A stretch of DNA of 64,000 bases from Ovis canadensis (Eukaryota > Chordata > Mammalia > Artiodactyla > Bovidae), in contig NC_091256.1 in the NCBI RefSeq assembly GCF_042477335.2, positions 43,107,001-43,171,000 of the forward strand. The letters are read 5' to 3'. A program made the position numbers and the translations under genes. The notes beneath the pieces were generated by a model. That model searched no databases. It was not told the DNA's origin and saw only the letters and a list, made by a program, of their open reading frames with translations. Below, piece after piece: positions 5,871 through 44,771 of the stretch (the first letter of the stretch is position 1; each line of letters starts with the position of its first letter).

Positions 5871-6154
5871 GACTTTTACAGGGTCCTAACTAAATAACTG
5901 TAGGTTGCTGAGTTAGTGACATAAGACACTTACTTACAGACCAAAAGCCCCTCAGGAGAGCAAACAAACTCTGTTTATTAGAAGTCTAGTAACTCAGCTA
6001 TTTGCCATTTCCGATAAACATTCACATGCTCCTCCTGTTGACAGGAAAAAGCAATATATAAGAAATAAACACAGAACTATTCAGTAGAAAAAATAATGAA
6101 ACAGACTGTGGTCTAGAAATTCTAGATCCTATTTGTAGCTCTCTGGGCAGGTAC

Positions 6155-6378
6155 TTGGCCTTTTGGCTAAGATCAAGTGGTAGCTCAGACGGAAAGTGTC
6201 TGTCTACAATGCGGGAGACCTGGGTTCGATCCCTGGGTCGGGAAGTTCCCTGGAGAAGGAAACGGCAACCCACTCCAGTACTCCTGCCTGGAAAATCCCA
6301 TGGACGGAGGAGCCTGGTGTCCATGGGGTCGCAAAGAGTTGGACACGACTGAGTGACTTTACTTTTTTTACTTACTTT
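6155..6378 (+). mobile_element. Chimeric retrocopy: U2 snRNA 5' end fused to Bov-tA SINE
   Basis: Positions 6155-6179 match U2 snRNA from about nucleotide 9 to 33 (including GGCCTTTTGGCTAAGATCAA) with one C-to-T change. The sequence then passes directly into a Bov-tA body (GTAGCTCAG, tRNA-like B box GGTTCGATCC, then the common CCATGGGGTCGC tail region). The whole unit is flanked by a perfect 13-bp duplication, tctgggcaggtac at 6142-6154 and 6379-6391. So both parts were inserted together, most simply by template switching during LINE-driven reverse transcription. Confidence 0.85.
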
Positions 6379-7699
6379 TCTGGGCAGGTACCCTTTTCTC
6401 TATTTACTTTGCAACTACCTACGTCACAAAAGCTATATGAAGAATAATATCTCTGTTATCTAGTTAACATTTTAAAGATCTTTCAGAACACTCCTCCCTT
6501 CAAAACATACTGGTTTGAGAATCATCTCTAGCTTTTCCTACGTTTACCACATAGCAATGATTTCTGTTATTCATAGACTACCTAAAGTGTAAAGAAGCCC
6601 ATTATAAGCCAAGCAGTGTATCTCCAGTTTTATTTAAAAAAGCAAAATGTTCTCTTCCTCTACTTTCACAGATTTCTTTTAGGCAATGAAACTGGCCCTC
6701 TGGCCACTGCATAATCCTGATTTATAAAGGGGTTTAACAACCTAGAAGAAAATGTATACTGTGCTCTCAAGAACAGAATATATTTTGAGGGATGGTGTGT
6801 AACAATCTGCATGAATAAATAAAAAACCAAATTCAGATCACTCAAGGGGGACTGGGTAGAAAGAGTAAAAGGGCAATAAAATTCTTGAAAAATCAAGGCT
6901 TCCACAGCTAGCCACAAAAAGTTTACATCTAGAGAATTATTTCTTAACCAGTGACACAGGCCAAAGACTTTACAAAGTACCCCGCTCTTTTAAAATCTCT
7001 GGTTCTGATTATTCCTCTCTGGAACTTTCTCCCATCATACTCCATTTTTCTCAGCATGCGAATCTATCTCCTTTCACCTCCAAGTTTATATGCAAACTCA
7101 GCGGAGTACCCTCCTCAGGTCCCAAGCAGTCTCTATGGCCTTCTCACATTAATTCCCAGATTGAGGCATAGGAATTCCTTCCTACCCAAGAGGTTACAGT
7201 GTAAATGTAAAAACTTAAAAACAATACAGGGGAACACAAAGTTTAGATCGGTGAGTGAGAACCAAGACTCCTAACCTCCCGTATTCTGGCTCTTCTTCAT
7301 CTTTAAGCCAACAAAAACAACGCTGGGGACTTTTTCACTTGTCAATCCACTTACGAAATTTTAAACATCTTAAGTGGAGGTGACCTCTTATAAAGCAAAA
7401 ACTAATCAACCGAAAAGAAACAAACCCAAGCATCCATCTAACTGCAACGGCAACTGTGTACCAGTTATTCCAATGGCGATAATAACGCAAACCAACGTTT
7501 TGACTCATTTCTGAGTGCTCGCAGTACTCCAAAAGTTAGATGACACAACAAACCCGTTCTTCTCTGCCTCTCCCGCGGCCACGTCAGATACCTGTTGCAT
7601 CACCTGGTAAGAGGTCTCCACAATCTAGGAAAGGCGTACCGCCGTGAACCCCTAAATAATTCAGCTGGGCTATTTTCTGGATAAATGTTAGCCTCATTC

Positions 7700-44561: not shown

Positions 44562-44771
44562 AGTGAAGTGAAGTGGCTCAGTCGTGTCCGACTCTTTGTG
44601 ACCCCATGGACTGTAGCCTACCAGGCTCCTCCGTCCCTGGGATTCTCCAAGCAGGAATACTGGAGTGGGTTGCCATTTCCTTCTCCAGGAGATCTTCCCA
44701 ACCCAGGGATCAAACCTGGGTCTCCCGCATTGCAGGCAGACGCTTTAACCACTGAGCTACCAGGGAAGTCT
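44562..44771 (-). mobile_element. Bov-tA SINE
   Basis: Antisense full-length copy ending at the tRNA head (CACTGAGCTACCAGGGAAGT). Confidence 0.88.

Follow-up and report, generated by a model that had tools for sequence, protein, structure and literature searches.

Exchange of the head is regarded as a source of novel SINE families, and the intermediate steps of such a swap are rarely preserved. In 2015 Kojima reportedly described SINEU, a group of reptile SINEs which carry an snRNA head instead of a tRNA head. Chimeras of U6 generated by template switching are known from L1, L2 and RTE LINEs and from the SINEs Mon-1 and AnolisSINE2; the accessible parts of that article include SINEs thought to be mobilised by LINEs other than L1, with an RTE-like case in lizard, and leave the opossum RTE cases open (PMC4476161). 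Judged by these parts, switching onto snRNA is thus a known step for L2- and RTE-type LINEs and for SINEs. Incorporation of U1 or U2 snRNA into SINEs is mentioned in the accessible sections of another paper (PMC13174262). Bov-tA, the SINE concerned here, has its 3′ end in common with the LINE BovB, and its mobilisation by BovB is known from the literature, as far as the accessible text of PMC5322556 goes.

We studied a stretch of DNA of 64,000 nucleotides (the window), in which a piece of U2 snRNA resides in front of a Bov-tA-type SINE body (Table 1). A preceding sequence-only reading had described about nt 9-33 of U2, with one mismatch, joined in sense to this body and a perfect 13-bp target-site duplication (TSD) around the unit. 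Alignment to U2 confirmed this description apart from the bases shared at the joint. Such shared bases do exist, yet they are TG, common to U2 (AAGTG) and to the ordinary Bov-tA head (CCCTGGTGG), and not GTAG as had been proposed. The TSD directly flanks the whole U2-SINE unit without a mismatch, and its sequence occurs on the plus strand of the window only at these two sites. With up to three mismatches allowed, a 24-base junction pattern was found at one place in the window, and none of 100 shuffles matched. A chance resemblance of the head to U2 was ruled out by this shuffle test together with the Rfam U2 alignment of a family member (see below); the window copy itself gave no U2 match at E values up to 1 when compared with the Rfam library.

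Table 1. Features of the U2-SINE unit in the window and position of a copy of the second family
Feature	Position	Strand	Remarks
Left TSD copy, 13 bp, TCTGGGCAGGTAC	6142..6154	+	closing C may double as U2 nt 8
U2 snRNA nt 9-33, sense, mismatch C10T, TTGGCCTTTTGGCTAAGATCAAGTG	6155..6179	+	5′-shortened version of the family head beginning at U2 nt 1
A-box-like U2 nt 18-29, TGGCTAAGATCA	6164..6175	+	6/8 informative positions; putative Pol III function
Bov-tA-type SINE body (opening GTAGCTCAGACGG) and T-rich tail	6180..6378	+	
Native A box TAGCTCAGACGG	6181..6192	+	usual following T deleted, between 6192 and 6193
B box GGTTCGATCCC	6223..6233	+	
1-nt (A) deletion site	6245..6246	+	common to family 1 and its parent
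8-nt deletion site	6318..6319	+	ordinary copies have AGGCTACA here
Right TSD copy, 13 bp, TCTGGGCAGGTAC	6379..6391	+	perfect match to left copy
L062, family 2 copy	G000:C17:60960430-60960651		U2 about nt 27-28 joined to GCAGACGG; 60 further places

In the window copy the match of the tRNA model was confined to positions 8-63 and scored 18.9 bits (E 0.79), which is less than the gathering score, indicating that the 5′ acceptor strand is absent. Instead of the tRNA-derived 5′ end (the CTTCCCTGG head) the copy contains U2, followed by a Bov-tA body with both the A and the B box, and we therefore assigned it to a derived subfamily with a U2 head, apart from ordinary Bov-tA. The sequence-only reading had regarded the Pol III head of the SINE as truncated. 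This holds for the bases upstream of the A box, which are replaced, but not for the A box itself, which is retained. The 8-nt deletion falls in the loop separating the arms CCCATGGAC (6297-6305) and GTCCATGGGG (6319-6328); in two relatives of the window copy (L062 and L066) the same hairpin gave a weak sub-threshold Rfam match to a viral microRNA precursor model, probably by chance. A search of the window with the body yielded 42 other alignments to Bov-tA-like sequence, of which the best one longer than 180 bases showed 86.0% identity. At 44695-44766 on the minus strand, an ordinary Bov-tA copy matched tRNA model positions 1-71. The tRNA call at this place, the sole Rfam match above threshold in the window, overlaps the ordinary Bov-tA copy and thus probably does not represent a tRNA gene.

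The genome to which the window belongs (2.97 Gb, 42 contigs) was searched for further copies. In a similarity search with the window copy, the best 40 of 3,789 candidates included the window copy itself; the other 39 matched at 92-96% and started at query base 10-21. As the U2 piece corresponds to query base 14-38, most or all of it is present in those 39. We also scanned for the junction string of this group, hereafter family 1 (TTTTGGCTAAGATCAAGTGGTGGCTCAG). Allowing at most three mismatches, it was detected at 104 genome places (64 forward, 40 reverse) and at none with the reversed control; among the 100 places listed, 57 were exact, 35 had one and eight had two mismatches. Usually the bases following the joint are GTGG in family 1. 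The window copy has GTAG, and the GTAG form of the junction occurred exactly at two genome places only, one of which is the window. Altogether 83 family 1 copies were read (40 from the similarity search, three from another search and 40 from the listed junction places), the unread ones being mostly more diverged. All 83 lack the same eight nucleotides of the body, and the T and A deletions were clear in 81 and 82 of them, respectively, the remainder being unclear.

These data bear on the view of the sequence-only reading that the fusion was made at this insertion, i.e., that template switching linked a SINE RNA to U2 RNA during this particular event. Such a one-off chimera is compatible with the perfect TSD around the whole unit and with the fact that a second copy of the U2 head was found neither within the window nor in 200 kb sampled from contig C1, where an ordinary Bov-tA query produced 38 alignments of at least 150 bases (the total of 54 includes 16 from the window). 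It is refuted, however, by the junction at 104 places and the deletion common to all copies read, and we give it virtually no chance. A subfamily already carrying this 5′ sequence, which the reading itself had named as counter-evidence, is represented by the same 104 places. What holds of the claim is that the chimera, its original 5′ head replaced, was inserted as one unit with its own TSD; the interpretation as a whole was thus supported in part. We concluded that the window copy is a 5′-shortened member of a small U2-headed SINE family with approximately 100 recognisable copies. Junction scans of bacterial/archaeal and viral contigs, plasmids and phages were empty, as were control scans of these contig collections with an ordinary Bov-tA word, so that these zeros are uninformative on other ruminants.

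Upstream of the point where the window copy starts, several family 1 copies continue with ATCGCTTCTTGG, the U2 sequence beginning at its nt 1. Applying a scripted rule, the 5′ ends of 16 of the 83 copies were placed at nt 1, the largest single class, and those of the other 67 at nt 2-16. The rule tolerates isolated mismatches, cannot pass nt 1 and halts at two near mismatches; one copy beginning at nt 1 by eye (L153) was scored 14. The range of nt 1-16 applies to copies retaining most of the U2 piece, which are the only ones reached by the searches, and microhomology with the flank can lengthen the apparent U2 match. The Rfam U2 model (RF00004) aligned to the full-length member L066 from model position 1 (E 1.9e-4). 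Its score of 29.9 bits lies below the gathering score of 46 bits because only 33 nt of U2 are present. Thus, family 1 possesses an snRNA-derived 5′ end beginning at U2 nt 1. The 67 copies with later starts speak against a fixed start at this nucleotide: either such a start does not hold generally, or 5′ ends are frequently shortened. Reading the heads by eye, we found the canonical C10 clearly kept in four of the 83 copies (L032, L124, L133 and L153) and doubtful in L029. The captured source was therefore ordinary U2, and C10T arose later. L124 and L153 have CTCGGAC in common (canonical C10 with C13A), possibly an early side branch of family 1.

The tails of family 1 also differ from those of ordinary-headed relatives, the parents described below. 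At least four T follow GACTTCAC in 24 of 40 tails, with eight unreadable (the window tail lies at 6355-6378). At the same site ten of 14 parents have CACTTTC and none of the 14 has four T. The extra T run might be a gained Pol III terminator.

To a query combining the ordinary head with the deleted body, 14 of the 40 matches listed began at query base 1-6. All 14 (L080-L093) exhibited the ordinary head, whole or in part, together with the 8-nt and the A deletion. Since these ordinary-headed copies already carry the deletions, the body was shortened first and the U2 head was acquired afterwards. Moreover, the T deletion was present in nine of them and the T retained in five, by which the order of the deletions can be read. 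Consensus position 118, a CpG site, is a possible but weak family marker: C was found in 30 of the 40 closest copies and in 40 of the 83 read (28 T, two other, 13 unreadable), and in none of the 14 parents. Two undeleted ordinary copies (L067 and L075) contain GGGGACAGTGGTGGCTCAG in their 5′ part replacing the CTTCCCTGG head and display another Bov-tA head variant.

A query of U2 on the undeleted body revealed 27 U2-headed copies among the 40 matches listed. An assignment of all 27 to family 1 was rejected, as three of them (L062, L063 and L065) owe their equal shortening to a different junction. In this second family, U2 extends from nt 1 to about nt 27-28 and is followed by GCAGACGGTAAAGC on an undeleted body. 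The best 40 matches to a query modelled on the three copies all began within query bases 1-16, and a sample of 23 copies was composed of the first three and 20 of the other 37 matches. Its consensus head ATTGCTTCTCGGCCTTTTGGCTGAGATC has C10 intact and possesses the changes C3T and A23G of its own. Eight of the 23 copies begin at nt 1, four at nt 2 and six at nt 3. The Rfam U2 model aligned from position 1 to L062 as well (E 0.044, below the gathering score). The 8-nt site was undeleted in three aligned copies and in the consensus of the 23, to which this statement refers. Family 2 has lost the 5′ half of its native A box, U2 sequence being in its place. Scanning of the genome with the family 2 junction string (CTTTTGGCTGAGATCGCAGACGGTAAAG) disclosed 61 places (30 forward, 31 reverse; control 0). 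Together with the 104 places of family 1, whose control was likewise empty, these show the inherited U2 head to be a property of multi-copy families.

The relationship of the bodies was analysed in one FastTree run with 98 bodies, which took in 43 of the 83 family 1 copies. Family 2 formed a pure group (23/23, support 0.985), as did family 1 together with its parent (57/57, support 0.90); the best split containing all 66 U2-headed copies also took in 17 others. Within the tree family 1 was not separated from its parent, and repeated capture at the same junction is therefore excluded by parsimony alone. Considering the different junctions, the undeleted body and the separate tree group of family 2, two captures are the simplest reading: U2 was probably captured separately by families 1 and 2. 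A single capture followed by exchange between SINEs, which gave rise to the differing bodies and junctions, would agree with the use of the same U2 stretch from nt 1 in both families. Yet the U2 breakpoints are unlike, each family has private changes (C10T versus C3T and A23G), the bodies group apart, and an undeleted 8-nt site was seen in none of the 83 family 1 copies. For these reasons we regard one capture for both families as very unlikely.

TSDs of further copies were scored by a script permitting at most one mismatch, with re-paired flanks as controls. Scores of at least 10 were reached by seven of 40 family 1 copies compared to one of 116 controls, and scores of at least 8 by nine of 40 compared to six of 116. 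For family 2, scores of at least 10 were obtained with four of 23 copies and one of 88 controls. An exact 10-bp TSD adjoins U2 nt 1 in the family 1 copy L040. In the family 2 copy L108 an 8-bp TSD does so, within a flank rich in GT that gives this length little weight. By this test most copies are without a clear TSD owing to age, long tails or short duplications, and these data give weak support to TSDs beyond that of the window copy.

The mean mismatch of the 28-base family 1 junction over the 104 places was 2.0-2.2%, at a cut-off of three mismatches and with two or three mismatches assumed for four unlisted places. Divergence of the bodies outside CpG sites amounted to 1.7% (40 copies) and 1.9% (23 copies), both samples being biased to close matches. 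The neutral rate is 2.2e-9 per site per year, and a mismatch of about 2% accordingly corresponds to roughly 8-10 million years. We predict that family 1 occurs in Caprini and is absent or nearly so from cattle.

The course of events which we consider probable starts with deletions in an ancestral Bov-tA, continues with the capture of U2 and the amplification of the chimera as a unit, and ends with the insertion of a shortened RNA at 6142-6391. In detail, an ordinary Bov-tA lineage would have lost eight nucleotides and single bases from its body, as the ordinary-headed deleted copies demonstrate. Reverse transcriptase, presumably that of the BovB LINE, would then have abandoned the SINE RNA immediately upstream of its A box in favour of U2 snRNA, where copying began at about nt 33 and ran to the 5′ terminus. 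The chimera, in which both boxes and the tail were kept, was probably re-transcribed and multiplied as a unit, which accounts for the one common junction observed in the copies. Finally, one RNA shortened to U2 nt 8 or 9 may have been inserted in the window, creating the 13-bp TSD. Family 2 probably repeated capture and amplification independently at its other junction. The common junctions and deletions, the parent, heads that open with U2 nt 1 and, in family 1, the retained sequences of both boxes were observed directly; template switching onto U2 is inferred as the likely mechanism.

A founder copy was not seen among the copies read, and template switching, RNA ligation and the integration of a SINE within a U2 gene are thus not told apart by them. 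In the last case, a 5′-shortened SINE would have been inserted in a U2 gene or pseudogene at nt 33, and a chimeric RNA transcribed from U2 nt 1 would have seeded the family, which would likewise produce heads beginning exactly at U2 nt 1. This explanation requires that a SINE was truncated at its A box or immediately before it, and that this happened on two occasions. Furthermore, snRNA transcription terminates at the U2 3′ box and not at a SINE tail. We hold this explanation to be unlikely. Ligation of a U2 5′ fragment to the SINE RNA ahead of reverse transcription would fit the two breakpoints, which lie close together (about nt 27-28 and nt 33), but it requires cut 5′ U2 pieces, and the joint of family 1 has the TG homology that switching at short homologies would give, though two bases are weak evidence. 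In the accessible sections of PMC13174262, ligation is mentioned along with template switching as a possible origin of chimeras in which U6, U3 or 28S rRNA is fused in sense to LINE-1. For the families described here we deem it quite unlikely and prefer template switching.

The captured piece of U2 contains a stretch resembling an A box, whose consensus is TRGYNNARNNGG. U2 nt 18-29 (TGGCTAAGATCA) agree with it at six of eight informative positions, and the family 2 version TGGCTGAGATCG, consisting of U2 sequence plus one base, at seven of eight. The chance of a match of at least six of eight at any one position is 1.9%. In view of this chance the resemblance is suggestive only. The stretch begins 17 nt from U2 nt 1, a usual Pol III distance, whereas the native A box of family 1 begins 34 nt away; the captured U2 piece itself may set the Pol III start. 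It is conceivable, and we propose it tentatively, that the U2 5′ end acts as a ready-made promoter head: a SINE capturing it would gain a Pol III start at nt 1 and could found a family, and the two captures would reflect selection for the swap rather than chance.

By the presence of a parent, deletion intermediates, a chimera and an apparently independent second chimera in one genome, the order of events in a head swap becomes readable. The families show U2 in the role of a head for SINEs in a genome of ruminant type, and the resemblance of the U2 5′ end to part of a Pol III promoter offers a testable idea why it gets captured. In addition, U2-headed copies are possible markers for the phylogeny of sheep and goats. 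A text search of the literature covering few subscription papers gave no match to three junction strings and three names, and titles and abstract openings, a set outside which most subscription papers fall, described no U2-headed ruminant SINE. The Repbase entry Bovc-tA2, a variant of Bov-tA2 (Jurka 2009, Repbase Reports 9:1183), is cited in the accessible part of PMC8620236 and named for bovine reads in that of PMC6368560. It is possibly identical with one of the U2-headed families. SINEs with snRNA heads are already known; the U2-headed Bov-tA families look new, unless Bovc-tA2 is one of them.

Compared with known elements, family 1 resembles Bov-tA in its body, its A and B boxes and its type of tail, and its parent bears an ordinary CTTCCCTGG-type head. 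It differs from Bov-tA by U2 nt 1-33, which stand in place of the sequence preceding the A box, by the 8-nt and 1-nt deletions and by its number of about 100 recognisable copies. Like SINEU, the U2-headed elements are amplifying SINE families with an snRNA-derived 5′ end. Unlike what is reported of SINEU, about 28-33 nt of U2 are placed here on a tRNA-type SINE with a retained B box, the genome being of ruminant type, and the Bov-tA body makes common descent with the published SINEU families unlikely. With the U6 chimeras, as presented in the accessible parts of PMC4476161, they have in common that the snRNA is fused 5′ of the LINE or SINE sequence, there partly with duplications. The difference is that U6 insertions with various elements are described there, whereas the U2 chimera of the present study turned into a source element and was multiplied.
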